Source: a virus
Length of the DNA stretch: 64,000 bases
Direction: 5' to 3' (one strand)
IMG/VR virus record: IMGVR_UViG_3300035698_035275
Span: 1 to 64,000 of that record
Shown here: piece after piece, positions 12,695 through 62,413 of the stretch
Layout: every line of letters starts with the position of its first letter
Numbering within the stretch: the stretch's first letter is position 1
Notes under the pieces: generated by a model
Databases searched by the model: none
What the model was told of the DNA's origin: nothing
The model's input: the letters and a program-made list of their open reading frames with translations, nothing else
Made by a program: the position numbers and the translations under genes

Positions 12695-14701
12695 GTGAGG
12701 AAAAGGGCTAGCACAGAAATAATAAAGTCGGAGATAACGATTGTGTGTGCAGTGCACGATCCGGGTTGTCTTCCCGTGCTGGCCAAGTCGGTAGCGTCTA
12801 TATTTGATTCCGGAATAAGAAATATCGTAGTGGTTGATTCCGGCAACAACGAGCCACACATAGTAGATATACTGCGCTCGGTGCCGTGGAAGACAGCTCA
12901 TTATTACGGGGTGTCAGGCGGCAAGTTAGGATTTTCCAGGTCTAAACTAATCAATTACGGTGTAGCCAGAGTGAGCACCAGGTTCATTATGGTTTCTAAC
13001 GCCGATAACATACTAGTTCCACAATTAATAAATAGTGTATGCGAGACGCTAGCGCGTGCAGCGTCGTCTATGGTCGTTATACCAGTTAGGTATGTGTCCG
13101 CCACGGATACTGAGTCGTTTATGTCGAAGGAGTGCAGGGCTACCGAGTTACCAGCAATGATCACCAAATCGGACGATTCCATACCCGACTCGGGGGAGCC
13201 GATGGTATCCCCGTCATCCCCGTTTGTATGTGGGAGATACGATTACTGCTCATCTGGGGGGTTTGACTGTACACTGGGCAGCGTCTCATTCGAGATGGAA
13301 GACCTCAAGGGTCGGTGGAAACAGCAGGGCAGAGATATAGTATATGCCGATGGGTACTCACATCATTTGTACCACGCTGAGAGAGAGCACGTTAACAACA
13401 CGAAGGCTGCGGCTGTTGGCACTGATGATGTTGTACAGTTTTCATATTCAGCAGTGGAAGGCGTGTCCTTTGTAGACTGTGCCATCAAACCGGTGGCCAC
13501 GGTTATCGTAAAGAAGAATATACTGATATGCGGTGAGACTCTGGGGCTAGGTGGCGCTGAGAAGATGACGGTAGACATAGCTAATTCCCTAAACAGGTCC
13601 GGTCGTTTCAACGTCGAGGTAGTGCTAACCGTATCACGTAATGGCATATTCAAGGATAGGCTCGACGGCGGTATACCGGTTAGCCTGGTTACATCTACGA
13701 AGGGCCTGACAGACATCGTATGCGAGCACAAGCCAGATGCCGTACTTGTTAACAACTGCAGAATCGCAACGCAGTGCATTAGAGACATAACCAACAGGCA
13801 CAAACCCGACTACATAGGTGTGCTGTTACACGGGTTTAATGAGTGGACTATGAGAATGGTCCCAGACGAATTAGATGACGTGATAACCGACATCGTGACA
13901 ATATCCCATGAGGCGGCTGGTGGAATAATAGGTAAGAAGCCAGCGTATAAGGGAAGACTGGCGGTATTCGAAAATTACGTAGATACCGACATATTTACGA
14001 AGAGCAGCGGAGCACGTACGATCTTTAATAAGTACGGGTGGCCGGACGACTCATTCGTATTCAGCTATATGGGCAGGCTCTCCGGAGAGAAATCATTAGT
14101 GCCGCTGGTAGAAACTTTTAAACGTGTGTTAACTAGAAACAAAAAAGCCAGACTGTTAATGATAGGCGGTTCAGATCCTGGTGTTCAGTCGTATAAGGGG
14201 TACTGGGACTCTAATATTAGGGTTATTACTGACTACATTAAGCAAATAGGGGTGGAGCAGGAAGTAAAAATAACCGGAGTCGTCAAGGACCCGTGGACGT
14301 ACCTAAATGAGACAGATGTGCTCGTTATGTCGTCGCAATTTGAGGGAGTCCCACTAGCACTGTTAGAGGCTATGTCGTGCGAGGTGCCGTTTATTTCAAC
14401 GGACGTAGGTAGCGTCTCCAGGTTCTCTAACGCTGGAGCCGGTGTGGTAGTGAAGAAGGTCGGACCGGATATGAATGACGGGGAAAGGTCGGAGTTCGCA
14501 GGTCACATGCTATCGGCTATGCGTAATCAGCCACGCGGGATAGCAATGGGTAAGGTTGGTAGGGAATACATAGAGAGGTTTCACAGCCTTAACGAATATA
14601 GTAGCAAAATATCTAGGTATTTTTGTAATGCAGTGTCTGGTGACGGTACGACTAATAGTGATCGTGCCTGTGATAGAATAGTGGATCCAATAGTAATCTG
14701 A
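12695..14701 (+). CDS. bifunctional glycosyltransferase (GT-A plus GT4-like GT-B)
   Basis: A 668-residue protein. GTG 12695 has GGAG 8 nt upstream. Residues 1 to about 240 look like a GT2/galactosyltransferase-type GT-A domain: T-I-V-C-A-V-H-D at the start, V-S-N-A-D-N in place of a DxD, and F-E-M-E-D-L-K followed by H-H-L-Y-H. Residues about 275-650 are a GT4-like GT-B domain: G-L-G-G-A-E-K, G-R-L-S-G-E-K-S, and the E-x7-E element E-G-V-P-L-A-L-L-E near residues 550-558. Both active sites look intact. It would move sugars from nucleotide donors to an acceptor that cannot be named; a virion protein or modified DNA base is possible. It interrupts the structural gene order. Confidence 0.85.
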   Translation: MRKRASTEIIKSEITIVCAVHDPGCLPVLAKSVASIFDSGIRNIVVVDSGNNEPHIVDILRSVPWKTAHYYGVSGGKLGFSRSKLINYGVARVSTRFIMVSNADNILVPQLINSVCETLARAASSMVVIPVRYVSATDTESFMSKECRATELPAMITKSDDSIPDSGEPMVSPSSPFVCGRYDYCSSGGFDCTLGSVSFEMEDLKGRWKQQGRDIVYADGYSHHLYHAEREHVNNTKAAAVGTDDVVQFSYSAVEGVSFVDCAIKPVATVIVKKNILICGETLGLGGAEKMTVDIANSLNRSGRFNVEVVLTVSRNGIFKDRLDGGIPVSLVTSTKGLTDIVCEHKPDAVLVNNCRIATQCIRDITNRHKPDYIGVLLHGFNEWTMRMVPDELDDVITDIVTISHEAAGGIIGKKPAYKGRLAVFENYVDTDIFTKSSGARTIFNKYGWPDDSFVFSYMGRLSGEKSLVPLVETFKRVLTRNKKARLLMIGGSDPGVQSYKGYWDSNIRVITDYIKQIGVEQEVKITGVVKDPWTYLNETDVLVMSSQFEGVPLALLEAMSCEVPFISTDVGSVSRFSNAGAGVVVKKVGPDMNDGERSEFAGHMLSAMRNQPRGIAMGKVGREYIERFHSLNEYSSKISRYFCNAVSGDGTTNSDRACDRIVDPIVI

Positions 14702-43952: not shown

Positions 43953-44501
43953 TTATTCCTCCTTTTCAACGATTGGCAGAGTTATTTCGGATTGGCCCTG
44001 GTATTTACCGGATCTTGAATAGTAGTTGGTAGCGCACGCGGCACCGCGAAAGAATATAGCCTGCATTATTCCTTCTCTAGCATGCACCCTTACCGGTAAT
44101 GGGGTGCTGTTGCTTATTTCTATTGTAACCTTCCCGTGCCACCCAGGTTCAAGCGGTGTTACATTGACGATTATTCCGCACCTTGCATATGTGCTCTTCC
44201 CAATACATATTGCTATTACATTGTCCGGCATGTGGATAGTCTCTACGGACTTAGCCAGGGCGAATGAGTTAGGCGGTATGTCACAATAATCACCTTCCAC
44301 CCGTACGAATGATTCCGTCTTCATATTCTTCGGGTCTATCGTGACATTGTGCACATTATGGAACACTAGGAACTCGTTATCTACACGCAGGTCGTACCCA
44401 TACGATGACACCCCATACGATATTACCCCACTCGACACCTGCTTATTAAGAAATGGATCTACTATCTTATGATTTTCAATCTGTCTGTCGTTCAGTATCA
44501 C
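43953..44501 (-). CDS. dcd: dCTP deaminase
   Basis: A 182-residue product if read from GTG 44501. That start gives M-I-L-N-D-R-Q-I, matching the family's M-I-L-S-D start, and GGAGG lies about 5 nt upstream. An ATG at 44513 adds four residues and has no ribosome site. G-K-S-T-Y-A-R-C-G, P-L-E-P-G-W-H-G-K-V-T-I-E128 (probable catalytic Glu) and G-K-Y-Q-G-Q are the Dcd signatures. It converts dCTP to dUTP, feeding dUMP/dTMP synthesis together with the dUTPase domain encoded at 59222-60211. Confidence 0.92.
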   Translation of the reverse strand: MILNDRQIENHKIVDPFLNKQVSSGVISYGVSSYGYDLRVDNEFLVFHNVHNVTIDPKNMKTESFVRVEGDYCDIPPNSFALAKSVETIHMPDNVIAICIGKSTYARCGIIVNVTPLEPGWHGKVTIEISNSTPLPVRVHAREGIMQAIFFRGAACATNYYSRSGKYQGQSEITLPIVEKEE

Positions 44502-44536
44502 CTTTTCCTCCATTATATTGCTATTTAATCGGCATA

Positions 44537-45453: not shown

Positions 45454-45467
45454 AGGAGGAGTTGCAA

Positions 45468-45692
45468 ATGGGCGAGTTGGAGATTCTGAAGCGGTGCGCG
45501 TCCAGTAGGAAAGAGGTCACGAGCACCCGTCATGATATGTTTAACGTTCTAGTGCTTATCGAAGACCTGTGCACGTCTGCTATTAAGATTCGAGATGAGC
45601 AGGCATATGAGAAGGACCGCGCTCAAGAGGACGTTCAAGAGGACGTTCAAGAGGACGTTCAAGAGGACGATGATAGCCGGGGCGATAGGTAA
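45468..45692 (+). CDS. hypothetical protein with (EDVQ) tandem repeat tail
   Basis: A 74-residue product. ATG 45468 lies 6 nt after AAAGGAGGAG; an in-frame TTG at 45462 is ignored. Residues 1-50 are a helical, charged domain. The C-terminus is a run of E-D-V-Q units from a 12-nt DNA repeat, ending in acidic residues. The repeat count may vary between strains. Function unknown. Confidence 0.6.
   Translation: MGELEILKRCASSRKEVTSTRHDMFNVLVLIEDLCTSAIKIRDEQAYEKDRAQEDVQEDVQEDVQEDDDSRGDR
45624..45671 (+). repeat. 4 x 12-bp tandem repeat
   Basis: Four units of CAAGAGGACGTT, the last with one mismatch, coding for Q-E-D-V. Strand-slippage would change the tail length in four-residue steps without loss of frame. 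Confidence 0.9.
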
Positions 45693-46248: not shown

Positions 46249-46517
46249 TGAAGCGGGTGATAGGGGCTATAAAATGCTCCGCTTGTATGATAGGAGCCTT
46301 GCTGGGTTCGTTTGTCCTAATATTTATTACCCAGGTGCCTGAGCTGATTAGGTACGAGTACGAGGCTTATTTCGACACGTTAACCAATGTAGAGCGTGCA
46401 CTATGGACAACCACTGCGTGGTTGGGTGGGGGGCTTTTATTTATGGCTCTGTTTAGTGTCGCAGTTCTCATAATTACATATAACCCGAGGCAGACGGACG
46501 ATGACGACGGTAGCTAA
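46248..46517 (+). CDS. two-pass membrane protein (89 aa)
   Basis: ATG 46248 is preferred over ATG 46245 because GGAGGAGG lies about 6 nt upstream. Two hydrophobic helices (residues about 12-30 and 56-78) flank a short acidic loop, and the C-terminus is Asp-rich. It is a candidate inner-membrane protein. It overlaps the next gene by 17 nt. Confidence 0.6.
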   Translation: MKRVIGAIKCSACMIGALLGSFVLIFITQVPELIRYEYEAYFDTLTNVERALWTTTAWLGGGLLFMALFSVAVLIITYNPRQTDDDDGS

Positions 46518-46845
46518 CCGGGTGCCTGAGTTAAATTGCCAAGAATGCGGGGCGTGCTGCTGCCTGTTCACAGTGCAGTTATCTGACGGTGACGAGCTGA
46601 ATATTTCTAATGAACTTGTTGAGCCTTGGCCTAATCATAAAGGTGAGTTCGTTATGAGGGGAACCGGGGGAGATGTTGACATGGATAATAAGCAGACCGG
46701 TAATGGCTGTGCTGCCTTTGTTGGAAAGGTAGGGGCTGCGTGCTCATGTGCAATTTATAAGTCAGGTAGGCCGTGGGTGTGTCGGAATTTTGAGCCTGGG
46801 GGCGTTCTGTGCCATCAAGCCAGAAGATTTCACGGACTGGAGTAG
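46501..46845 (+). CDS. YkgJ-family cysteine-cluster (zinc/iron-chelating) protein
   Basis: A 114-residue product. It has C13-x-x-C-G-A-C-C-C near the start, then N-G-C-A-A-F, A-A-C-S-C-A-I-Y, R-P-W-V-C-R-N-F and G-V-L-C-H-Q-A-R, the order of conserved Cys in YkgJ/UPF0153 proteins. They bind zinc or iron. The biological role in phage is unknown. Confidence 0.75.
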   Translation: MTTVANRVPELNCQECGACCCLFTVQLSDGDELNISNELVEPWPNHKGEFVMRGTGGDVDMDNKQTGNGCAAFVGKVGAACSCAIYKSGRPWVCRNFEPGGVLCHQARRFHGLE

Positions 46846-46850
46846 GAATA

Positions 46851-47366
46851 ATGCGCGGAGATGCCACAGCCGAGTATATGCGCTTAGCTACATCAAGAGG
46901 GTGCAAAATAGGTAAGGCCACCAAGCTTAGATTAGTAGCAATGGAAGATTGGCTAGAGGAAGTCATTATAGATGATGGCTCTGGGTTCGTTAGAGCGCAA
47001 TTCGATAGGCTGCCGTCTCGCATGTGCCTAAATGCATTTAGGATGCATTGTCCTCCTCCAAATGTAATGATAGGCGAAAAGGCGATTGAGAGATACCTGC
47101 ACGTGGCTGATATTGAGAAGGTAGTAAACGAACTTGACGCCGAGTCGTGCGCCCGTGCATCTGCCTCATTTATAACTGAGTCAATGATTGACGTCGAGCA
47201 CATACCGCATATGGTAGATGCTGGCAAGCTAAGTAGAAGGCTAATTAACGCAATAAGGAATAAGTTGGGGTCCGGTGGTTGCTTAGATAGTAGCGTAATA
47301 ATTAACGAGATAGCCAATACAGTGCTGCGTGAAAGAGAATCTGACTTTCGCCGTCTTTATAATTGA
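46851..47366 (+). CDS. hypothetical protein (171 aa)
   Basis: ATG 46851 with AGGA just upstream; an in-frame GTG at 46809 would overlap the previous gene by 37 nt and has no ribosome site. The protein is mainly helical, with an R-M-H-C-P-P-P-N-V segment near the middle. No motif is recognised. Confidence 0.6.
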   Translation: MRGDATAEYMRLATSRGCKIGKATKLRLVAMEDWLEEVIIDDGSGFVRAQFDRLPSRMCLNAFRMHCPPPNVMIGEKAIERYLHVADIEKVVNELDAESCARASASFITESMIDVEHIPHMVDAGKLSRRLINAIRNKLGSGGCLDSSVIINEIANTVLRERESDFRRLYN

Positions 47367-47431
47367 AGACGTGGCACAAAATATTAATATTAGGTGCTCA
47401 AATAATAAAAACAGATTGGAAGGACAAGACG

Positions 47432-48751
47432 ATGGACAAGAAGACCGAGAAAGTTATTGCATCGCTGTTGAAGAAGGATGCAATCAAGCTGATTGACGCT
47501 GAAGGCAAGAAGAAGAAAGCCGTGTCTGTCAAGGCTAGCAACATCGATTGCAGTATATCGCTGCCTACGGTGTCGAGTCTGACAGGCAACAAGCAGATGT
47601 ATGTCGAAATGGATGGTGATATGCACCGCCTGATGGGGGTTGCCGCTAAGCAGCAGAAGCCAAGAAGCCCCAAATATGACCTCAAGTTCATAGTGGAGGT
47701 TGGCGGCAAGAAGAAGTACATCAACCCCGATAAAATCGACGGGTTCACCAACGATTACGCCGACGCTGACGACGCTGACGACGCTGACGACGCTGACACC
47801 AATGAACAGCAGGATGACACGTCCCCCACACCGTCTACCCCCTTGGCTATTGGTGGTCTGCCCACCAAACCGGTAATGACCGAGGCCGACATCCCGAAAA
47901 GATTCCTCGACAAAAAGAAAGTCCCGTACTCCCACATCAAGATGTACAACGAGATGAAGAATATGGCCGGTGACGAAATCTCCGAGCTGCATAACGTCAT
48001 CTTTGGCGTTCCGCCTGACTTGCTGGGTGCCAGCGATGACGAGGCGGACTTCTACCGGAAGCGCTGCTATTACGGGTACGGTCTTGTTGTCTCGAAGGAG
48101 GTCAATATTGAAAAGTTCGTTGAGAATCTCAACGGCCTTGTCAAGTTTGAGAAGAAGACCAACAACATTGGATCGGTTACTGGCAAGCCCAAGAAGGCGG
48201 CAGTGACGGATGACGGAATCGGCACAATCAAAACCGTCGAGGGCAACCGTGTCAGGGTTAACCCCAGCTCCGTGGTCTTCATAGATGAGGACCCAATCAT
48301 CAAACGACGCATCCCGAAGAACGGATTCAGAGACGAACTCGCTGAGAAGCTCTTCTATATGACGATGAAACAGGTCTGCGCCTACGCTGTGGAAATCGGC
48401 GCGTGTGACAAGGATGATGTCAAAAAATACCTGAATGCGTCCGACAACAACAACGATCCGGGTCTTGCTCGCATGGCCATCGGAAACCGCATCCGTGGAC
48501 AGGTCAATCGAAACGAGCGTGGTGATGCGCCCAAGAAGGAAAAGAAGAAGTCAGGTGTTAAGGCCGTTCCGGGCGAGAAGTCTCTGGCGCAGTTAGCTGT
48601 TAAGGCTGCTGTAAAAGCAAAGGCGAAAGCTGCCACCAAGGACACTGTGGAAGAGAAGAGCGCCGACAAAAAGCCGCCGAGTGTAAGAAGCAGTCTGGCC
48701 AAGCTCGCTGCCGCCAAGAAGGGCAAGAAGAAGAATAAGGCCAGTAAGTGA
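47432..48751 (+). CDS. highly expressed charged protein, function unknown
   Basis: A 439-residue product. ATG 47432 has GGAAGGA 7 nt upstream; an earlier TTG at 47363 has no ribosome site. It is Lys-rich at both ends, with an A-D-D repeat near residue 110 (9-nt DNA repeat) and a structured middle (F-R-D-E-L-A-E-K-L-F near 310). Codons strongly avoid ATA and AGG, like the capsid gene, which suggests high expression. The Lys/Ala-rich C-terminus resembles histone-like tails. It may be an abundant DNA-binding or replication-organising protein. Confidence 0.65.
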   Translation: MDKKTEKVIASLLKKDAIKLIDAEGKKKKAVSVKASNIDCSISLPTVSSLTGNKQMYVEMDGDMHRLMGVAAKQQKPRSPKYDLKFIVEVGGKKKYINPDKIDGFTNDYADADDADDADDADTNEQQDDTSPTPSTPLAIGGLPTKPVMTEADIPKRFLDKKKVPYSHIKMYNEMKNMAGDEISELHNVIFGVPPDLLGASDDEADFYRKRCYYGYGLVVSKEVNIEKFVENLNGLVKFEKKTNNIGSVTGKPKKAAVTDDGIGTIKTVEGNRVRVNPSSVVFIDEDPIIKRRIPKNGFRDELAEKLFYMTMKQVCAYAVEIGACDKDDVKKYLNASDNNNDPGLARMAIGNRIRGQVNRNERGDAPKKEKKKSGVKAVPGEKSLAQLAVKAAVKAKAKAATKDTVEEKSADKKPPSVRSSLAKLAAAKKGKKKNKASK

Positions 48752-49233
48752 TCTACCTGGGACATCCAATAGATATGGCATCAAAGAGGTACGATCCCAC
48801 CCAGCTCTTGGCAGCAATGTCAGGGGCTGGGTGCCAATCTGTGTATGTGCCATCTTCAGCGTTCAGGGTGCATACAAACTCCGAGGCGTACGCGTCCGGT
48901 GCTGACCCGCGTTCGTTGTGTAGGATAAATGACTTTGCAATGTCTATGTGCACTTCAGCAATATTTATTTATGCACAGAAGAAGTCCGTATGCCTGCCTA
49001 TTGAGCTGGAGAATGCGACGAAGGGCAACATAAGGGCGGTAGACGGCGGCCTGCTGAATGTGTATGTAGTGTGTCCGTGGGTGTTTAAGTCTGTAAAGAT
49101 GATAGAGATGGTGACATACGGCGCTCCGTCTAGAATAAATGTATACAATAGTGAGGGTGGGCTTATAGAGGACATAGTGTCAAGGTCGGATAGGGTGTCT
49201 AACTTGTTATCCAGTGAGCTGCTGGAAGCCTAA
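48748..49233 (+). CDS. nucleoside 2-deoxyribosyltransferase-like protein
   Basis: A 161-residue product. GTG 48748 overlaps the previous stop (GTGA). M-I-Y-L-G-H-P-I-D at the start, G-A-G-C-Q-S-V-Y-V-P near residue 26, N-D-F-A-M-S-M-C-T near 61, and S-V-C-L-P-I-E-L-E-N-A near 80-90 follow the layout of the nucleoside 2-deoxyribosyltransferase/DUF4406 group, whose Glu (86 or 88 here) attacks the sugar. It could exchange bases on deoxynucleosides. The similarity is partial. Confidence 0.45.
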   Translation: MIYLGHPIDMASKRYDPTQLLAAMSGAGCQSVYVPSSAFRVHTNSEAYASGADPRSLCRINDFAMSMCTSAIFIYAQKKSVCLPIELENATKGNIRAVDGGLLNVYVVCPWVFKSVKMIEMVTYGAPSRINVYNSEGGLIEDIVSRSDRVSNLLSSELLEA

Positions 49234-53610: not shown

Positions 53611-56097
53611 ATGTCCTGTGACGGCTGTCCATTACGCGGTGTAAGCATAAATACAAAAGTGCCTGGGGGTGGTAGTAATAGCCCATCAATAATGCTGGTA
53701 GGTGAGGCACCAGGGAGAGAAGAGGACGAATTAAATCAAGTGTTTGTGGGTCCGGTCGGGGTGTTCCTAAGAGAATGCATGGCCAGCATGGAGGTAGACG
53801 CATCCGATATCTACTTCACTAATATTGTAAAGTGCAGGCCACCGAATAACAAGCTGGTAGGCAAATATAAAAAGGCCGTAAAGCACTGTAAGGAGTACCT
53901 GCTAGAGGAAATAGAAAGGCTGTCCCCGACGGTTATAGTGCCTCTCGGTGACACAGCAATGGAAGCATTACTAGGAATACGCGGTATTTGGAAGAACCAC
54001 GGCAGGGTAATAGATAGAGACGGAATCCCTGTAGTACCCACTTTCCACCCGTCATACGTCAAATTCTACAATAAGAGTGACCAGGTATTTGACTTATACT
54101 CCCAGGACCTATATAATGCTGCGGTAATAGCAGAGGGCGGCACGCCAGAAATTATAATACCAGACGTTGACTATATAACAGAGGGTGTTACTAATGACGA
54201 TATATTGCTGCTGCTCAAGGCGGATATACTGTCTATAGACATCGAGACTAACACAGTCAGCACGCACTATTGCACCATATCGGCGGATGCTGACAGGGGA
54301 CCACGAATACTGTCGATATCGTTTTCATGGGATGAGGGCGTCGCAATGTTTGTCCCATGGGATGAGGAGCACATGCCAGCTATAAAGGCAGTGTTGGAGT
54401 CGGACATCCCAAAGGTGGCGCATAACTGGAAATTTGAATACTCGTGGCTAGTGTTAAAAGAGGGTATTGCCGTTAGCAACATATACATGGATACCATGCT
54501 AGCACATTACCTGGTGGACGAAAACAGCAGGCACGGGTTGAAGGAGCTAGCGTACACGTACACCGATATTGGTGGGTATGACGTGGAGATGGATGTGTAC
54601 ATAGGTGATCACCCGGAGTGTGACCCAAAGAAGAGCGGGTCATATGCGAATATACCGCTTAGGCTACTATCTAAGTACAATTGTGGAGACGTGGATGCGA
54701 CCCTGCGAATAGCGCGTAAGCTTAGCAAGGTAATGGATGACAAACTGTGGTCACTACATAATAACATACTGGTGCCAGCGGCTGAGATGCTGTCTCGGGC
54801 GGAGCTTAGCGGGTTTGAGTTAGATATTGATATGTGGGACTGCCTGAACAACGAGTATACGGCTAAGGTTAGTGAAGCTATTGATGACGCTATGTCTATT
54901 GACGAGGTTAGGCACTTCTGGAAGTATTATAAGGAGTCCACCAAGGCCAAGGGAGACAGGGTTAATCTTAGGTCTTCCAAGCAGGTATCGCTCTTAATGA
55001 CGGAGTACTTCAGATTTCCAGTGATAAGGGAAACCGACTCCGGCAATCCGTCATGGGATTCCGAGGTAATAGACGAGCTGCTAAGGATGGATAGGTACAA
55101 GGGGAATAAATTCCTGCCGATACTAAAAAGAGTAAGAAGCATTTTGCAGATACAAAGCAACTGTCTAGGGACGACGCCTAAGCAAATAGCGGAGTCGGTT
55201 GATGCCAGGGTGCATACGAATTTTATCTTGCATTTTGTAGTCACTGGTCGCCTGTCGTCTAGAAACCCAAATATGCAGGCTATTCCTAGAGAGTCTACTG
55301 TTGGCCCGTTGAACGTGCCGTCAATAAAGACAATGTATATTTCCAGGTACGACGGCGGGAACATTGTACAGGCCGACTATAGCCAGATAGAGCTTAGGAT
55401 ATTGGCTATGCTGTCTGGTGATAAGGCGTTCAGGCGCATATTTGAAGAGGGGCTGGACCCGCATGCTAGTGTTGGGGTTAATATATACAAAATGCTAGAG
55501 GGGAAGGACATAGACATAGCGGACCTGCCGAAAGAGTGGAGAGATAAAGGGAAGACAACCAACTTTGCAATAGTGTATGGGCAGACACCAGAGGGGATGG
55601 CTAAAAAGCTAGGCTGTACAGACGCGGAAGCTAAGAAGATGATGTCTGCCACCATGTCTACATACTCGGGAATAGACGACCTGCTTAAGGGGTATAGGAA
55701 TGATGTCATAAAGAATGGGTATGTTGAATCCCCATTTGGCAGGAGGAGGAGACTGCCGATAATCGAGGGTATGAGTAGGTCAGATAAGAATGCGGCACTG
55801 AGAGAGGCCGGTAATCACCCTGTACAAAGTGCCGCGTCGGACATGACCCTATACTCAGCGGTACTACTGGATGCCGAAATCAGAAGACTGGGTATGAAGT
55901 CGCACATAATATGCCTTGTGCACGACTCGATAATACTGGATACTCCCAGTAATGAGACTGAAAAGGTGTGTAAGATGGTAGGGGATATTATGAGGTCATT
56001 ACACAAGCATTTCGACTGGATAGACGGCAGTTTCCCGATAGAGGTAGACGTTGAGTATGGCCCGTCATGGGGCGAGCTTAACGAGTACGAGGCATGA
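53611..56097 (+). CDS. family A DNA polymerase with N-terminal family 4 uracil-DNA glycosylase domain
   Basis: An 828-residue replicative polymerase. ATG 53611 follows GAGG. Residues 1-190 form a family 4 uracil-DNA glycosylase: Cys3/Cys6, G-E-A-P-G-R-E-E-D, C-R-P-P-N-N-K with a fourth Cys in K-H-C-K-E-Y, and F-H-P-S-Y. The four Cys would hold an Fe-S cluster. Residues about 205-390 are a 3'-5' exonuclease (D-I-E-T, H-N-W-K-F-E-Y, Y-N-C-G-D-V-D). The rest is the polymerase: Q-A-D-Y-S-Q-I-E-L-R (A), T-N-F-A-I-V-Y-G (B), V-H-D-S-I (C, HDS rather than HDE). UDG-like fusions occur in SPO1-type polymerases. With a PurZ-like gene nearby it is a DpoZ candidate. Confidence 0.92.
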   Translation: MSCDGCPLRGVSINTKVPGGGSNSPSIMLVGEAPGREEDELNQVFVGPVGVFLRECMASMEVDASDIYFTNIVKCRPPNNKLVGKYKKAVKHCKEYLLEEIERLSPTVIVPLGDTAMEALLGIRGIWKNHGRVIDRDGIPVVPTFHPSYVKFYNKSDQVFDLYSQDLYNAAVIAEGGTPEIIIPDVDYITEGVTNDDILLLLKADILSIDIETNTVSTHYCTISADADRGPRILSISFSWDEGVAMFVPWDEEHMPAIKAVLESDIPKVAHNWKFEYSWLVLKEGIAVSNIYMDTMLAHYLVDENSRHGLKELAYTYTDIGGYDVEMDVYIGDHPECDPKKSGSYANIPLRLLSKYNCGDVDATLRIARKLSKVMDDKLWSLHNNILVPAAEMLSRAELSGFELDIDMWDCLNNEYTAKVSEAIDDAMSIDEVRHFWKYYKESTKAKGDRVNLRSSKQVSLLMTEYFRFPVIRETDSGNPSWDSEVIDELLRMDRYKGNKFLPILKRVRSILQIQSNCLGTTPKQIAESVDARVHTNFILHFVVTGRLSSRNPNMQAIPRESTVGPLNVPSIKTMYISRYDGGNIVQADYSQIELRILAMLSGDKAFRRIFEEGLDPHASVGVNIYKMLEGKDIDIADLPKEWRDKGKTTNFAIVYGQTPEGMAKKLGCTDAEAKKMMSATMSTYSGIDDLLKGYRNDVIKNGYVESPFGRRRRLPIIEGMSRSDKNAALREAGNHPVQSAASDMTLYSAVLLDAEIRRLGMKSHIICLVHDSIILDTPSNETEKVCKMVGDIMRSLHKHFDWIDGSFPIEVDVEYGPSWGELNEYEA

Positions 56098-56117
56098 AAG
56101 CTGATTCTTTTCATGCC
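56091..56117 (+). other. perfect 9-bp hairpin at polymerase stop
   Basis: GGCATGAAA (56091-56099) pairs with TTTCATGCC (56109-56117) around a 9-nt loop. The left arm includes the polymerase TGA. No T-run follows, so it is not a standard terminator; mRNA stability or processing is possible. Confidence 0.5.
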
Positions 56118-56140
56118 GTCTGTAATAACGGAGGTGACGC

Positions 56141-56371
56141 ATGGCCAAGGTAGCAACAAAGAAGATAACAGTAGAGTACGGTATGTCGCTGGAACTGCCG
56201 AATAAGTGGGTAAGGTTCGCTACTACCTCTGAAGCTAAGATCCCAAGCGGTTCCATTGCCATAGATGTTGCACTTATAAGAGAGGACGAAATGCAGCGGT
56301 GCGTTAATTTCGTGCAGGGCGTCGCTGACGAGGTACACAAGCAAACCAAGAGAAAGAAAGGCGGTAGATAG
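56141..56371 (+). CDS. small hypothetical protein (76 aa)
   Basis: ATG 56141 has a GGAGGTG site upstream. The protein is basic at both ends (K-R-K-K-G-G-R tail), with a beta-rich middle (I-T-V-E-Y-G-M-S-L-E-L). It sits between polymerase and SSB. No recognised motif. Confidence 0.6.
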   Translation: MAKVATKKITVEYGMSLELPNKWVRFATTSEAKIPSGSIAIDVALIREDEMQRCVNFVQGVADEVHKQTKRKKGGR

Positions 56372-56895
56372 TGGCTAAGAAGGTAATAAAGAAGCCTGCA
56401 GACCATAGCGGCAGGGACCAGGTTATCAACGCCAGGGAGTTCATGAATGAGCTGCTGGCAGCGTGTCAGATTGGGGATGTCGTTGAAGCTGCCACCACTC
56501 AGGTAGGCATGTTCGTCGAATACTCGATGGCATGGGCTAAAGCCAGAACGAAGGTGGATAGATCCAAGGCCATGTTCGATGCTGTGAAATCCAAGCTCCA
56601 AATAGCTGTTAGGGACGACCTAATGGAGGCCGGGGGCAAATTCACAGAGGCCAAGGTTCAGGCAGAGGTAGACGGTAGGCCCGAATACTCGGAAGCCCAA
56701 ACCATGATGATGAACGCTATCGAGGCTGAACGCATACATAGAGTAGGGGTGGATGCCCTGAACATGCGAAAGGACATGATCGTTGTGCTGTCGAGGTTTA
56801 CAGCCGACGAAAGAAATGCTGGAACGCTGGTAAGTAGAACCAGAATCAAGCGGAAGCTCGACAGTGCCGGTAGATCGATAAACAAAAACACATAA
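56371..56895 (+). CDS. helical protein between polymerase and SSB
   Basis: A 174-residue product; GTG 56371 overlaps the previous stop. Mostly alpha-helical and charged (D-V-V-E-A-A-T-T-Q-V, W-A-K-A-R-T-K). Codon use resembles the SSB gene. It may be a replication accessory protein, judged by position only. Confidence 0.65.
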   Translation: MAKKVIKKPADHSGRDQVINAREFMNELLAACQIGDVVEAATTQVGMFVEYSMAWAKARTKVDRSKAMFDAVKSKLQIAVRDDLMEAGGKFTEAKVQAEVDGRPEYSEAQTMMMNAIEAERIHRVGVDALNMRKDMIVVLSRFTADERNAGTLVSRTRIKRKLDSAGRSINKNT

Positions 56896-56913
56896 AGCGG
56901 AGGATGAGAGAGA

Positions 56914-58080
56914 ATGGCTATAAAGATTAGACGCAGTGTCCTGGTTGATCAGGCAAAGCAAGCGCAGGAGTCCGGGGGCGGGAAGTATATGAAGTTTCAG
57001 GACGGAAAGACATATGTGCGCGTGCTCCCGTTCCTAGTAGAGAAGGGCATGTATGATGTCGCACTCAAATTTGGAACACACAACAACATACCGGGTGTGC
57101 GGGGTCCCGTCACGTGTAGACGCCTTTTCCCGAAGAAGTCCGCTAAGGGCAAGAGTCTGGAATGCCCTATCTGTATGGCAGTGGAGATGCTGGAGTTAGC
57201 CGGTGAGTCTGAGAAGGCTAACAAGCTCCGTGCCAATCCGAATCGGTGGGCAATGTACATGTACGATGTGTCGAACAAGCAGGGTCCGAAAACGGCAACC
57301 GTCGGATCGCAGATAGCCACTCCTATTCTGAAATACGGGGTGGACGATGAAGAGTACGGAGATGTATTTGATCCCAAGGTAGGGCGTGATTTCATCGTTG
57401 AGAAGACCGGCACCGGTATGGATACTGAGTACCAGGTACGTATTCGCGATGCAAGCAGATGCAAACCGGTGCCTGCGGCTGTCATGGCTAAGGTCAACTC
57501 GCTATTTGACGAGCTAAGACCGAAGTCATACGCGGAATTGCTCGAGATGATGGGTCCTTTGGGTCTGAACATTCCAAAAACCGAGTCGGCAATAGCAGCC
57601 AACAACGACGACGAGGAAGAGGACGACGTACCATTCGACAGCAGCGATGATGAGGACGACGACGAGGAAGAGGACGAAGACATCGATGAGGATGACGACG
57701 ACGAAGAGGAAGAGGACGAAGACATCGATGAGGATGACGAGGATGACGAGGATGACGAGGATGACGAGGATGACGAGGACGAGGAAATCGACTATGAGTC
57801 CTTAGGGTTCATCAACAGTGACGACCTGGAGGATACAGTGGGAAAGGTTGATGCATCCAATCCCAAAGTCAAGAAGCTGTTCGATAAGTGGGGGGCGGAA
57901 GACGGCACTAAGAGCGGCCTGCTGGTCATTCTGAAGAAGCAGAAGGTCTTTGCCGTGCAGAAACCCGGCAAGGCTGGCGGTGGTGGTGCTCTGGACAGGC
58001 TGAAGAAGAAGATGGAGAGCGCTAGCGACTCGAAAGCGAAGGTAAAAGCAAAAGCGAAGAAAACCGGCAGGAAGAAATAA
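56914..58080 (+). CDS. gp32-like single-stranded DNA-binding protein
   Basis: A 388-residue product. ATG 56914 has GGAGG 9 nt upstream. A H56-x11-C68-x15-C84-x-x-C87 zinc site, with V-R-V-L-P-F before it and R-W-A-M-Y-M-Y-D-V after it, matches T4 gp32-type proteins. It coats single-stranded DNA in replication and recombination. Residues about 232-292 are an almost unbroken Asp/Glu run from 9-nt DNA repeats. After it comes a small folded segment and a Lys-rich C-terminus. Most SSBs end in the acidic tail, so the basic end is unusual. Confidence 0.82.
   Translation: MAIKIRRSVLVDQAKQAQESGGGKYMKFQDGKTYVRVLPFLVEKGMYDVALKFGTHNNIPGVRGPVTCRRLFPKKSAKGKSLECPICMAVEMLELAGESEKANKLRANPNRWAMYMYDVSNKQGPKTATVGSQIATPILKYGVDDEEYGDVFDPKVGRDFIVEKTGTGMDTEYQVRIRDASRCKPVPAAVMAKVNSLFDELRPKSYAELLEMMGPLGLNIPKTESAIAANNDDEEEDDVPFDSSDDEDDDEEEDEDIDEDDDDEEEEDEDIDEDDEDDEDDEDDEDDEDEEIDYESLGFINSDDLEDTVGKVDASNPKVKKLFDKWGAEDGTKSGLLVILKKQKVFAVQKPGKAGGGGALDRLKKKMESASDSKAKVKAKAKKTGRKK
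57601..57789 (+). repeat. acidic-codon low-complexity repeat in SSB gene
   Basis: A GAY/GAR-rich tract coding for Asp/Glu. It includes 9-nt units (GAGGATGAC) between about 57735 and 57780 and two longer related blocks. Slippage could change its length. Confidence 0.85.
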
Positions 58081-58086
58081 CTAGCC

Positions 58087-59220
58087 ATGCCCAAATTCGG
58101 TAATGTAGACCTGATAATAGGCGGTCAGTACGGATCAGAGGGAAAAGGTAAACTCGCCGGGTATGTATCCCGGCGGGTTCCTTATTCCGTCGCCGTGTGC
58201 AACTTCACATCTCAAGCCGGTCATACATTTGTGTATGACGAAGGCAGAAAGGTTATTACGCAACAACTACCAACAGCTATAGTGAGTAGTTGTGAGAATA
58301 TAATGATAGGGCCTGGTGCTATCATAGATGAAGACGTACTGGAGAGGGAGATAAACGAGTACGGACTAACAGAAGCCAGACTTACTATAGACAGCAACGC
58401 TATAGTGATAGACCAGAGGCACAAAGACGCTGAGAGGGCCAACGCCATAAGGGTAGCATCAACGATGAAGGGCAATGGAGCTGCAGCAGCGGAGAAGTGT
58501 CTCAGATTCCAGGGCTTGAGGACTGCTGGCGATGACTCGTTCAGATTTAAGCAGTACGTTGGTGATGTGAGGTCGGCACTACACAATACGCACGTGATGG
58601 GTGGTGACATACTGCTGGAGGGGTCGCAAGGGTTCGACCTGGATGTTAATCTTGGATTTTATCCATTTGTCACCAGCAGGGGGACCACTAGCGCGGCAGA
58701 GCTTAGCAGGTGCGGCCTTTCGCCACAAAGCGTAAGGAATGTATTCGGCGCATATCGGACGTTCCCAATACGCGTTGGGAACTTGAAGGATGAAAACGGT
58801 GTGGAGGTGGGTAATTCCGGGCCTGTATACGATGACCAGACGGAGATGACGTGGGATGAGCTGTCTAGCCAATATGGGGGTGCTGATAAGCTGCTGGAGA
58901 GGACCACAGTGACAGGCAGGGTCAGAAGGGTGTTTACGTTCTCCCGGACCCAATTTGCCAGATCGATAGTGTCGAACGGGGTAAACTGCATATTTATAAA
59001 TTACGCTAACTACATCGACGGGGCCTTGTACGGTGCCAGTGGTGATAGTGACGATTCCCCATCGCGTAATGCCAAGCTTCTTGACTGGTTGCAGCAGAAC
59101 ATCGTTCCCGTCCTTTCGAAGGTGCACGATATAGGTGAGAGGGTCATTATACCACTTCTTATTGGTACTGGCCCCGCCGACTCTGACATGTTGTCGATTA
59201 ACATGATTGTGGGGTCCTAA
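58087..59220 (+). CDS. purZ: PurZ-like adenylosuccinate-synthetase homologue (2-aminoadenine pathway)
   Basis: A 377-residue product with the adenylosuccinate synthetase fold: G-G-Q-Y-G-S17-E-G-K-G-K (P-loop), A-G-H46-T, S-T-M-K-G-N-G near residue 127, E178-G-S-Q-G, F-V-T-S-R and T-V-T-G-R-V-R-R-V-F-T-F. In cellular PurA the position of Ser17 is the catalytic Asp (G-D-E-G-K-G-K). Its loss is the known mark of phage PurZ, which joins dGMP and Asp to form the precursor of 2-aminoadenine (Z). Phage PurZ proteins are about 340-380 residues against about 430 for PurA, and this one fits. His46 is kept. The gene lies between SSB and a kinase-dUTPase fusion. A cellular-type PurA function is less likely but not excluded. 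Confidence 0.85.
   Translation: MPKFGNVDLIIGGQYGSEGKGKLAGYVSRRVPYSVAVCNFTSQAGHTFVYDEGRKVITQQLPTAIVSSCENIMIGPGAIIDEDVLEREINEYGLTEARLTIDSNAIVIDQRHKDAERANAIRVASTMKGNGAAAAEKCLRFQGLRTAGDDSFRFKQYVGDVRSALHNTHVMGGDILLEGSQGFDLDVNLGFYPFVTSRGTTSAAELSRCGLSPQSVRNVFGAYRTFPIRVGNLKDENGVEVGNSGPVYDDQTEMTWDELSSQYGGADKLLERTTVTGRVRRVFTFSRTQFARSIVSNGVNCIFINYANYIDGALYGASGDSDDSPSRNAKLLDWLQQNIVPVLSKVHDIGERVIIPLLIGTGPADSDMLSINMIVGS
58153..58177 (+). other. GC-rich hairpin in 5' end of purZ-like gene
   Basis: CGCCGGG (58155-58161) and CCCGGCG (58169-58175) pair perfectly around a 7-nt loop, and two flanking pairs (one G-U) extend the stem to 9 bp. It falls at codons 23-31 and might slow translation or attenuate transcription. 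Confidence 0.5.
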
Positions 59221-59221
59221 T

Positions 59222-60211
59222 ATGCGAGGGTTCGAAGTAAAATTCGTGTCCGGCTATACAGGGTCTGGCAAGACGGCCTATACTGATAGGTTGCACCTGG
59301 ATACTGGGTGGCCGGTACTGCACATAGGTGACTCGTTAAGGGAGTTTGGTATATCGTCCAAATCCATATCCGAGATGCCGGATGCGCACGCTCCCGCGTC
59401 GTTGGACAAGATGGTTAATCAAACGGTGGCTAATTTCATTGCTGAAGCGTTAGGACCTGAAGGAGGGGGCGGCGTAATAATAGATGGATTTCCACGTAAG
59501 CCGTCGCAGGTTCACGAGGCATATGAGATGGTGTGTGGGCTGGTGCGTTACGCACCAGGAGAAATACGCCTAAGATTTGTATTTGTGACGGCACCTATTG
59601 ATACAAGAATATCCAGGGTGCTGAGTAGCAGGAGCGAGGCCAGAAGAGAGTTATCTGTAATGAAGATAGAATCGGAGTCTGCCGATATGGATAACTCTAT
59701 AAAAGTGGCAAAGGAGATCGAGAGAGGTAAGCCAGCGTTAGCAATGAGCATTATGGTTACAGAGACGGGGATAAAAGAGATATACCCAGGAGTGATGGTG
59801 GCAGATGTACTGGTGGTTGGAGACGGGTACAGAATGCCCGTGCATGCTGGGGACGTTGGGATAGACTTAAGCTCAAACGGCAGGGTTGAAATACTCCCTG
59901 GGGAGTTCAGCAATGTAGAAACCGGGGTAAGCGTTAAGATAGATGATAGATGCTGGGGAAGAGTGACCGGCAGATCATCGGCTGTATGGGGTAAGGGAAT
60001 AATGGTGATGGAGGGAGTCATTGACCCAGGGTATACCGGTGAGCTGTTTATGCTCGTGTATAACCCTGGGAAAAAGGCGGTGGTGGTGGATAGGGGAGAC
60101 AGAATAGCCCAACTAATTCTAATACCAAGGGTTGACTATAGCGTATTGAGGGTAGACAGTCTGCCAAAGACGAGTAGAGGCAATAAAGGATTCGGCTCAA
60201 CCGGTAAATGA
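59222..60211 (+). CDS. adenylate-kinase-like domain fused to dUTPase
   Basis: A 329-residue product. ATG 59222 has GGGG about 8 nt upstream; an in-frame TTG at 59207 lies inside purZ. The N-terminal domain (1 to about 195) has Walker A G-Y-T-G-S-G-K-T, a G-D-S-L-R-E segment, and I-I-D-G-F-P-R-K-P-S-Q, which fits the adenylate kinase signature. The C-terminal domain (from about 205) has all five dUTPase motifs: A-G-D-V-G-I-D-L, G-R-S-S-A, G-V-I-D-P-G-Y-T-G-E-L, G-D-R-I-A-Q-L and R-G-N-K-G-F-G-S-T-G. It would convert dUTP to dUMP and phosphorylate a nucleoside monophosphate, possibly dZMP or dAMP. Such a fusion is unusual. Confidence 0.85.
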   Translation: MRGFEVKFVSGYTGSGKTAYTDRLHLDTGWPVLHIGDSLREFGISSKSISEMPDAHAPASLDKMVNQTVANFIAEALGPEGGGGVIIDGFPRKPSQVHEAYEMVCGLVRYAPGEIRLRFVFVTAPIDTRISRVLSSRSEARRELSVMKIESESADMDNSIKVAKEIERGKPALAMSIMVTETGIKEIYPGVMVADVLVVGDGYRMPVHAGDVGIDLSSNGRVEILPGEFSNVETGVSVKIDDRCWGRVTGRSSAVWGKGIMVMEGVIDPGYTGELFMLVYNPGKKAVVVDRGDRIAQLILIPRVDYSVLRVDSLPKTSRGNKGFGSTGK

Positions 60212-60229
60212 TAATGTAGGGGCTTATAT

Positions 60230-62413
60230 ATGAATAACAGAAGCAAGTTGGTCCTGTCACCAGATAGGAAAACAGCGATATTTGGGGAGAGGTACGCCAA
60301 GAAGGGTGAAGATTCGGTGGAGTCTGTCATGCACAGAGTAGCGATGGCAGTAGCTACCAGTTATGAGAGCAACCACGGCGGCAAGCTGGAGGATACTGCC
60401 GATATAGTGGATGAGTGGGTAGGGTATATGTCGAGGTTCGAGTTTGTTCCTGGCGGTCGTATTCTGTCTAATGCAGGCGTTGACAAGAATCTGCTGAACT
60501 GCTTTGTAGTGCCGGTGGATGACAGCATAGGGGGCATATTCGACTCGCTGAAAAGAAGCATGATGATACAAGGGGTTGGTGGTGGTGTTGGGTTCAACTT
60601 CGGCGGAATAAGGCCGAAGGGGTATCCGACATCCGGCCTTGGTGTGGCCTCTGGCCCGTGCAGCTTTATAGATGTATTTGATAAGGCCAGTGATACAATA
60701 AGCTCTACCTCTGACAGGAAAGCCGCTAATATGGGGATACTGCCAGTGTGGCACCCAGACATACGGGAGTTTATCAGATCAAAGGTAGGGAACGACGGCA
60801 ATACTGGTAGATGGATAAAATTCAATATATCAGTGGCTGTGAATAACAAGTTTATCAATGCTGTCAAGTCGGGGTCCGGATTTGACTTGATGTGGGATGG
60901 AAAGGTAGTAGACACAATCGACGCGGCGGGATTGTGGAAGGAGATGGTGGATAGTCAATGGCTGTGTGGTGACCCTGGTTTGTGGAATTATGATACAGCC
61001 AACGAAATGAATAATACCGGGTACTTCCAGGAGCTGATAGGTACAAATCCGTGTGGTGAGATATCCCTGCCTGCTTGGGGTTCGTGCTGTCTGGGTTCAA
61101 TAAATCTCAGCAAATTCGTTGTCGATGGGTCGGTTGACATACCAGCCCTTGAGAGGGTCGCTGGTTCAGCGGTGAAATTCCTAGACTCGGTAATAACAGA
61201 AAATGAATACCTGTTTGATGAGATGGAAGCGGAGGCCAAGCTATCCAGGAGAATAGGGCTTGGAGTGATGGGCGTAGCTCACGCGTTAATGAAGATGGGT
61301 ATTAGATACGGCAGTGAGGAGGCCAGATTGGTTGTTGGGTCGATGATGACCACAATAAGAGACGCAGCATACGAGACATCTACAATGCTGGCAACATGTA
61401 TGGGGTCGTTCACTGGGTATGACGAGAAGAAATATACGTCCAAAAAGTCAGGGTATACTAAGTCGCTCCCTAACGGGGTAATGGACAAGATAAAAGCACG
61501 CGGGATAAGAAATTCAACACTGCTCACGGTTGCCCCGACTGGAACGACATCGGTTGTAGCAGGTTCATCGTCTGGTATTGAGCCTGTATACTCGTTGAAA
61601 TTCGTACAGAAGAGGTTCAAGGACGGGTCGTGGCACTCTGAGAATGTAATGGACCCTATATACGAGGAGTGGCTTAATAAAAACCCCGAAGGTGCTGCCG
61701 TTCCTGACTATTTTGTGACGTCGAAGAACATACATCCGGATGATCACCTGAAGATGCAATTGGCTGTGCAGGCGGTGGTGGATAACAGCATAAGCAAGAC
61801 AATAAATATGCCAAGTCACGCGACTAGGCAGGAAGTATCAAAAGTGCTGCTGGACGCCATGACGGGCGGCGCTAAGGGCTGTACTATATACAGGGACGGC
61901 TCTTTGTCTCACCAACCCCTGAGTGACACGCCTAGTACAAGAAACAAGGGTGTAAAGATTAGGCGTGGGCTGACGTATGAAATAAGTACGCCACAGGGGA
62001 AGGCATATGTGACCATAAACGACTTTGAGCAGGGTGGTGGTCCGATGCAGGTGTTCATAAGGGCTGATAAGCCAGGGTCGGATTCCTACGCATATTGCAA
62101 TGCAATGGGTAGGCTGATATCGATAGGGCTGCAAGACGGCACCGACCCGAAGAGAATAGCAAACACTCTAATGGGTATAAACTCATCCGGTGTGACATGG
62201 GAATTTATGCCAGACAGCCAGGATAAGCCGGTCACGATAACTTCAGTGCCAGACGCGGTAGCAAAGCTTATGCTATCCTACTGTGGGGAGCCGGTAGTAA
62301 TAATGGATAATGCGTCGTCGAAGGCTGTTATGTGCAGCAACTGCGGCGCTCCGATGGAAATGATAGAGGGTTGTCTAACGTGCAGGAGCTGCGGAAATGC
62401 TCTGTGCCAATAA
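60230..62413 (+). CDS. nrdJ: class II (adenosylcobalamin-type) ribonucleotide reductase
   Basis: A 727-residue product. ATG 60230 follows AGGGG. F-V-P-G-G-R-I-L-S-N-A-G, L-L-N-C-F-V, G-G-G-V-G-F-N-F, N-P-C-G-E-I-S-L and A-P-T-G-T-T-S are the reductase motifs. The C-terminus has C-S-N-C-G-A-P then C-L-T-C-R-S-C-G and a final Cys, a zinc ribbon typical of class II NrdJ. It makes deoxynucleotides, including dGDP needed for PurZ substrate. No small subunit is present or needed. Confidence 0.92.
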   Translation: MNNRSKLVLSPDRKTAIFGERYAKKGEDSVESVMHRVAMAVATSYESNHGGKLEDTADIVDEWVGYMSRFEFVPGGRILSNAGVDKNLLNCFVVPVDDSIGGIFDSLKRSMMIQGVGGGVGFNFGGIRPKGYPTSGLGVASGPCSFIDVFDKASDTISSTSDRKAANMGILPVWHPDIREFIRSKVGNDGNTGRWIKFNISVAVNNKFINAVKSGSGFDLMWDGKVVDTIDAAGLWKEMVDSQWLCGDPGLWNYDTANEMNNTGYFQELIGTNPCGEISLPAWGSCCLGSINLSKFVVDGSVDIPALERVAGSAVKFLDSVITENEYLFDEMEAEAKLSRRIGLGVMGVAHALMKMGIRYGSEEARLVVGSMMTTIRDAAYETSTMLATCMGSFTGYDEKKYTSKKSGYTKSLPNGVMDKIKARGIRNSTLLTVAPTGTTSVVAGSSSGIEPVYSLKFVQKRFKDGSWHSENVMDPIYEEWLNKNPEGAAVPDYFVTSKNIHPDDHLKMQLAVQAVVDNSISKTINMPSHATRQEVSKVLLDAMTGGAKGCTIYRDGSLSHQPLSDTPSTRNKGVKIRRGLTYEISTPQGKAYVTINDFEQGGGPMQVFIRADKPGSDSYAYCNAMGRLISIGLQDGTDPKRIANTLMGINSSGVTWEFMPDSQDKPVTITSVPDAVAKLMLSYCGEPVVIMDNASSKAVMCSNCGAPMEMIEGCLTCRSCGNALCQ

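Follow-up and report, generated by a model that had tools for sequence, protein, structure and literature searches.

Published schemes for phages that place 2-aminoadenine (Z) in their DNA leave the phosphorylation of dZMP to host enzymes and describe two kits for pool control, one made up of DatZ and MazZ and the other of DutZ and DmtZ. As Poubanne et al. (2026; PMC12884076) showed, PurZ0 phages manage their nucleotide pools with neither DatZ nor MazZ. In these phages DutZ, a dUTPase relative, hydrolyzes dATP, dGTP and dUTP, and DmtZ, a deoxyribosyltransferase-family member, breaks down dAMP and is able to pass the deoxyribose phosphate on to Z, with dmtZ fused to dutZ in 77 of 85 dmtZ genes (PMC12884076). 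Among polymerases, one change common to both DpoZ clades is that of a helix-O Tyr to Phe (Czernecki et al., 2021; PMC8599892), while S-2L achieves full replacement of A through pool control despite an unselective PrimPol (PMC8065100, PMC8342488).

Here we examined the purZ locus of a phage in a stretch of 64,000 nucleotides (hereafter the window), which comprises bases 1–64000 of the 66,842-base record IMGVR_UViG_3300035698_035275. IMG/VR lists the record as “linear,” Megablast against phages returned no match, and L004, another contig from this phage, extends ~150 bases beyond the record end but does not lead back to the record's beginning, which leaves the ends unclosed; part of the genome may be missing from the record, and further genes could lie there. 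An initial annotation had taken positions 53611–62413 to be an incomplete Z module, with a polymerase, a reductase and a kinase around a PurZ homologue and neither DatZ nor MazZ. “Incomplete” is probably the wrong word, as the tasks of DatZ and MazZ can be covered by a DutZ-type domain together with a DmtZ-like gene, and the predicted activities of the encoded proteins suggest that the locus is probably a complete alternative Z-DNA nucleotide module and not a broken one.

Gene Content and Comparison With Described Phages

The family A polymerase, class II reductase and adenylate-kinase-like enzyme reported around the PurZ homologue are all present, intact and encoded, with ssb, in one direction (+ strand). 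The first gene (53611–56097) encodes a SPO1-like fusion of a family 4 UDG, a 3'-5' exonuclease and a family A DNA polymerase (profile matches at 1e-29 for UDG, 1.9e-16 for the exonuclease and 2.2e-77 for DNA_pol_A), and is followed by ssb (56914–58080; phrog_1192, 5e-20), whose single-strand DNA-binding product has a long acidic tail, and by purZ (58087–59220), whose 377-aa product is a PurZ-type adenylosuccinate synthetase homologue (NF038379, phrog_1211). The next gene (59207–60211), whose first 14 bases are also the last 14 of purZ, encodes a 334-aa protein (AAA_17 2.4e-9; an ADK match; dUTPase 1.1e-24) for which the kinase label holds but the single-enzyme label does not, its C-terminal half being a dUTPase. 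The class II (B12-dependent) ribonucleotide reductase NrdJ follows (60230–62413; TIGR02504 523 bits, above the cut-off of 400). The span proposed for the module proved too narrow: a relevant 161-aa ORF of the nucleoside deoxyribosyltransferase family, DmtZ-like by HMM, lies outside it (48748–49233, + strand). Further off, a dCTP deaminase on the opposite strand (43953–44513; TIGR02274 163 bits, cut-off 93), a source of dUTP, is probably accessory to the pool-control genes.

The PurZ0 phages (Gordonia phage Ghobes and Arthrobacter phage Wayne) resemble the window in having a DutZ-type dUTPase near purZ, a DmtZ-like gene and no DatZ or MazZ, and the DmtZ-DutZ fusion of Wayne, like that of the window, joins a dUTPase to a second nucleotide enzyme. 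However, the fusion partner in the window is an AK-like kinase instead of DmtZ, the DmtZ-like gene stands separately ~9 kb away, PurZ falls on the ATP-type PurZ side, and the polymerase is not a DpoZ. With the classical PurZ-DatZ-MazZ cluster (S-2L, phiVC8, SH-Ab 15497) the window shares the catalytic Ser and an Asn/Gln at the guanine-Asp column of PurZ, and the polA-ssb-purZ order annotated in SH-Ab 15497 resembles the window’s; yet the window is without DatZ, DUF550 and MazZ, has the kinase-dUTPase fusion instead, and its polymerase is not DpoZ-2. The closest annotated phage PurZ (38.6%) is that of Bacillus phage vB_BpsS-140 (MH884512), which likewise has adjoining adk and dut, a DmtZ-like gene and no DatZ or MazZ, but whose purZ lies ~9 kb from adk-dut, whose adk and dut are separate genes, and which has ThyX. 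Bacillus phage SPO1 and Lysinibacillus phage LysYB1 share the UDG-exo-PolA architecture and the helix-O Tyr, with ~29% identity along the full length of the polymerase, although such SPO1-like phages are not counted among the known PurZ phages.

A Deep PurZ Lineage

The PurZ homologue carries Ser17 at the column of the PurA catalytic Asp (Asp13), where all phage rows have Ser and P. horikoshii PurA has Asp, and Asn308 at the guanine-binding Asp column, where PurA and PurZ0 carry Asp. Asn308 is common to most of the PurZ side of our 75-row tree, the residue being Asp in 24 of 25 sampled cellular homologues. In this tree the window PurZ falls on the PurZ side (39 rows, support 100/99), apart from PurA and PurZ0, where it forms a long, deep single branch outside the well-supported clade of kinase-linked PurZ (21 rows, 98/94). 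Its NF038379 score of 223 bits, below the curated cut-off of 300, suits such a deep lineage. Identity as a PurZ0, suggested by the DutZ- and DmtZ-type partners, was rejected, as the residue at position 308 is Asn, not Asp, and the protein lies outside the GTP-using PurZ0 clade. In E. coli PurA, Asp333 sets the preference for GTP; with Asn308 in place of this Asp, an ATP-type donor would be expected for the window PurZ.

Ser-bearing PurA homologues also occur in bacterial and archaeal genomes (contigs L192–L271), 78 of 80 with the same GSEGKG loop as the window PurZ. For 52 of these 80, none of the Z genes tested lay within 6 kb, and Ser alone is therefore no proof of Z synthesis. The sampled cellular Ser homologues branch apart from the PurZ side, with the exception of that on MAG contig L192, which carries DatZ.

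An AK-Like Kinase Fused to a DutZ-Type dUTPase

The fusion protein comprises an AK-like P-loop NMP kinase (residues ~8–183) and a DutZ-type dUTPase domain (~206–334), and its predicted structure is confident for the dUTPase half alone, where pLDDT is high. The kinase half has the motifs GYTGSGKT (16–23), GDSLR (41–45) and DGFPRKPSQ (93–101), the last of which holds the adenylate-kinase signature DGFPR-x3-[NQ] with both its Arg and its Gln, and its scores do not reach the curated adk cut-offs. In adenylate kinase, the Arg and Gln of DGFPR-x3-Q face the AMP phosphate and the N1/N6 edge of adenine, and this edge is common to Z and A. A ThyX-linked thymidylate kinase was considered and rejected on the AK signature and the lack of ThyX in the record; ThyX is also absent from 8 of 9 related IMG/VR records tested.

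Among the best phage matches to the dUTPase half, the proteins with at least 41% identity belong mainly to PurZ0-type phages of Microbacterium, Gordonia and Micrococcus, and purZ neighbors were seen in such phages. A 41-row dUTPase tree places the domain with DutZ in a group of 25 rows (95/87) that also holds other PurZ-phage dUTPases and is thus wider than DutZ proper, whereas cellular and non-Z-phage dUTPases form a separate group (96/82). All canonical dUTPase motifs are kept, and the motif-III hairpin carries a Phe (F281) at a position that, in a small comparison set, is Phe or Tyr in 7 of 7 PurZ0-phage dUTPases and Lys or Gly in 5 of 5 ordinary ones; an aromatic residue occurs here in a few other PurZ-genome dUTPases as well. 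By analogy with DutZ, we infer that the domain hydrolyzes dATP and dGTP. This domain would then make dAMP and dGMP, and as a kinase acting on either would set up a futile cycle, dZMP is the most sensible substrate of the kinase half, an assignment that we hold at about even odds. A search of the open-access literature returned no account of a kinase that acts in this way in a Z module.

A Candidate Remote DmtZ Homologue Outside the Flagged Span

In a direct full-sensitivity hmmsearch with a DmtZ HMM, the ORF at 48748–49233 alone, out of the 283 ORFs of the window, gave a significant match (E 5e-8, 27 bits), and the best of 5000 shuffles of the same ORF scored 7.9 bits. The genome-scan form of the search missed it at the loose first stage. 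Alignment with hhalign assigned a probability of 95–98% to the ORF as an NDT-superfamily homologue. While overall identity is low (17–26%), the ORF matches all five DmtZ residues probed by mutagenesis (Tyr6, Asp12, Pro57, Asn77 and Glu103; PMC12884076) with its Y3, D9, P35, N61 and E86, and the invariant columns over six sequences are M1, Y3, D9, P35, A38, N61 and E86. Pfam returned no match, tblastn against phages found none, and an IMG/VR search with the ORF recovered the same phage only; an AlphaFold model built from 4 sequences (pLDDT 39.7) was of too low a quality for the fold to be judged, and its Foldseek matches were not significant. On these sequence grounds, the ORF is a good candidate for a remote DmtZ homologue.

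DatZ and MazZ Across the Whole Record

The initial annotation had recognized no HD-domain dATPase or MazG-like gene near purZ, and this is borne out over the whole 66,842-base record, which may itself be incomplete: HMM searches with PF12917 (YfbR-like/DatZ), PF04447 (DUF550) and PF03819 (MazG) gave no match. As positive controls, PF12917 matched S-2L and phiVC8 and PF04447 matched S-2L, and out of the same four classical IMG/VR records each of these profiles matched three. DatZ above the family cut-off was likewise absent from all 41 non-classical PurZ records searched (the present record, vB_BpsS-140 and a further 39, many of which are fragmentary). Of the two explanations first offered for the missing partners, an alternative route, by way of the DutZ-type fusion and the DmtZ-like gene, is better supported than partners lying elsewhere in the genome.

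A Polymerase Outside Both DpoZ Clades

The polymerase had been set beside DpoZ, a link that fails. In our tree the window polymerase joins the SPO1-like UDG-PolA enzymes (28 rows, support 100), outside both the PurZ0-linked clade (5 rows, 100) and the classical clade (61 rows, 100); within its surroundings it groups with PurZ-associated polymerases at modest support (SH-aLRT 88). It scores 57.7 bits against the DpoZ profile NF038380 (cut-off 500). Helix O reads NFAIVYG, with the canonical Tyr that is also found in the other parsed polymerases of its kind, while Phe is present in 49 of 61 classical and 4 of 5 PurZ0 polymerases. Tree placement and the kept Tyr together reject a diverged DpoZ, though Z preference can evolve by routes other than the helix-O change. 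At non-classical kinase-purZ loci, most polymerases have an N-terminal UDG-like region.

The purZ-Kinase Arrangement in Other Phages

We fetched ~145 further IMG/VR purZ loci, many of them on fragmentary records, profiled their neighbors, and grouped them as “mid,” “g28” and “classical” by our own PurZ tree. Counted as distinct loci that are related and not independent, so that Fisher values are descriptive only, an AK-like gene adjoins purZ in 31 of 35 mid and g28 loci versus 1 of 82 classical loci, and DatZ occurs in 0 of 35 versus 79 of 82. The purZ-kinase arrangement thus recurs in dozens of uncultured phages. The AK-like gene of mid and g28 loci lies on the same strand as purZ, often with a 4-base overlap. 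These two groups form one clade (98/94), outside which the window falls with the same gene order, and the window kinase and dUTPase are distant relatives of those in the other kinase-purZ phages.

The hydrolase that accompanies the kinase varies. A dUTPase gene often follows the kinase in g28, in several mid loci the kinase shares one protein with an all-alpha dUTPase_2 domain (matches at E 1e-6 to 1e-8), the C-terminus of the L072 kinase is weakly PRA-PH/DUF550-like, and in the L005 group the kinase follows purZ though no dUTPase is nearby. From locus to locus, then, what stays with purZ is the kinase and what changes is the hydrolase. In one locus (L032:11137–12690), purZ adjoins a gene for a 517-aa fusion of an AK-like kinase, a dUTPase_2 domain and a C-terminal part that is NDT-like by eye (VVYLAGPI...). 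In another, of a non-classical lineage (L022:11166–12066), a DUF5664-type gene and a dUTPase take the place of the kinase after purZ. Four phage records of 250–395 kb (L083, L087, L039, L098) have a purZ homologue with no DatZ, kinase or DutZ within 10 kb.

A Model for Z Supply and Its Alternatives

In the model that we favor, the DutZ-type domain would, as its homologues do, hydrolyze dATP and dGTP (and dUTP) to monophosphates, and so both remove dATP and supply dGMP, which PurZ would join to aspartate to form N6-succino-2-amino-dAMP. Host PurB would convert this product to dZMP, and the AK-like half, judging from its motif and context, may phosphorylate dZMP to dZDP, otherwise a host-kinase step. 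The DmtZ-like protein would remove dAMP, and may use it as a donor of deoxyribose phosphate to the free base Z, while the UDG-exo-PolA enzyme, by its phylogeny and helix-O motif, would copy the genome with little or no built-in preference for Z. The nucleotide pool would then determine how much Z the DNA contains, as it does in cyanophage S-2L. The observed basis of this model is the gene content, the motifs, the domain fusion, the relationships of the proteins, the recurring purZ-kinase adjacency and the absence of DatZ and MazZ from the record.

The genes beside purZ might alternatively serve an ordinary pyrimidine economy, in which a true dUTPase, a pyrimidine or general NMP kinase and the dCTP deaminase lead to dTTP, with DatZ and MazZ missing because the record is incomplete. 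The deaminase at 43953–44513 does make an ordinary dUTPase role plausible, and both the full set of canonical dUTPase motifs in the fusion and the unclosed record ends agree with it; we nevertheless think this unlikely, given that the kinase signature is adenylate-kinase-like, that ThyX is missing here and from nearly all related records tested, that the kinase follows purZ in the L005 group even where no dUTPase is nearby, and that DatZ is missing from the other non-classical PurZ records too. We regard as similarly improbable a partial or scavenged use of Z, in which the enzymes only enrich the dZTP pool and an unselective polymerase takes dATP and dZTP alike, to give a genome of mixed A and Z. 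This would fit a polymerase that is not of the DpoZ type and a DutZ that, in also hydrolyzing dGTP and dUTP, is a less specific remover of dATP than DatZ (PMC12884076), but full substitution in S-2L with its unselective PrimPol shows that pool control can suffice (PMC8065100, PMC8342488).

More doubtful still is that the homologue is not a PurZ at all but acts in another purine or DNA-modification route, its neighbors being standard phage nucleotide metabolism. Its sub-threshold NF038379 score, the Ser-bearing PurA homologues in cellular genomes without Z genes, and a PLP enzyme and DNA methylase at the record end, which hint at other modifications, all point that way. Against it, the tree groups the homologue with PurZ and away from every sampled cellular Ser homologue but that of L192, most of the PurZ side likewise has Asn308 where cellular homologues almost always have Asp, and DutZ- and DmtZ-type partners are present.

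A broader proposal can be put forward tentatively, at slightly less than even confidence: a third Z-genome architecture, in which a PurZ-coupled phage dZMP kinase is joined to a dATP/dGTP pyrophosphohydrolase that differs in fold between phages, being a trimeric dUTPase, an all-alpha dUTPase_2 or a DUF550/PRA-PH-like domain, all unrelated, the genome is copied by SPO1-like UDG-PolA and not DpoZ, and Z enters by pool control across a large uncultured phage diversity. Were this so, the purZ-adjoining kinase and its varied hydrolases would be a third kit that supplies the missing phage step, convergent assembly of Z metabolism would be wider, Z-DNA would be predicted without DpoZ, and the enzymes would be useful for making dZTP and Z-containing DNA.

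Other Features of the Record

Beyond the window, the record carries a PLP-dependent (PALP) protein gene (record bases 65025–65786; L002:10026–10787) and, directly after it, an N6/N4 DNA methylase gene with a CPPYW motif that is cut by the record end (65796–66842; L002:10797–11843), a pair for which a further DNA modification is possible. Low-complexity acidic repeats occur at 45462–45692, 47363–48751 and 56914–58080 (QEDV repeats, DADDADD, and the DDEED tail on ssb). A small protein with a CxxCxxCC metal-chelating domain is encoded at 46501–46845, and a 668-aa protein encoded between capsid and tail genes (12695–14701) has a Glycos_transf_1 match (E 3e-21) in its C-terminal third.
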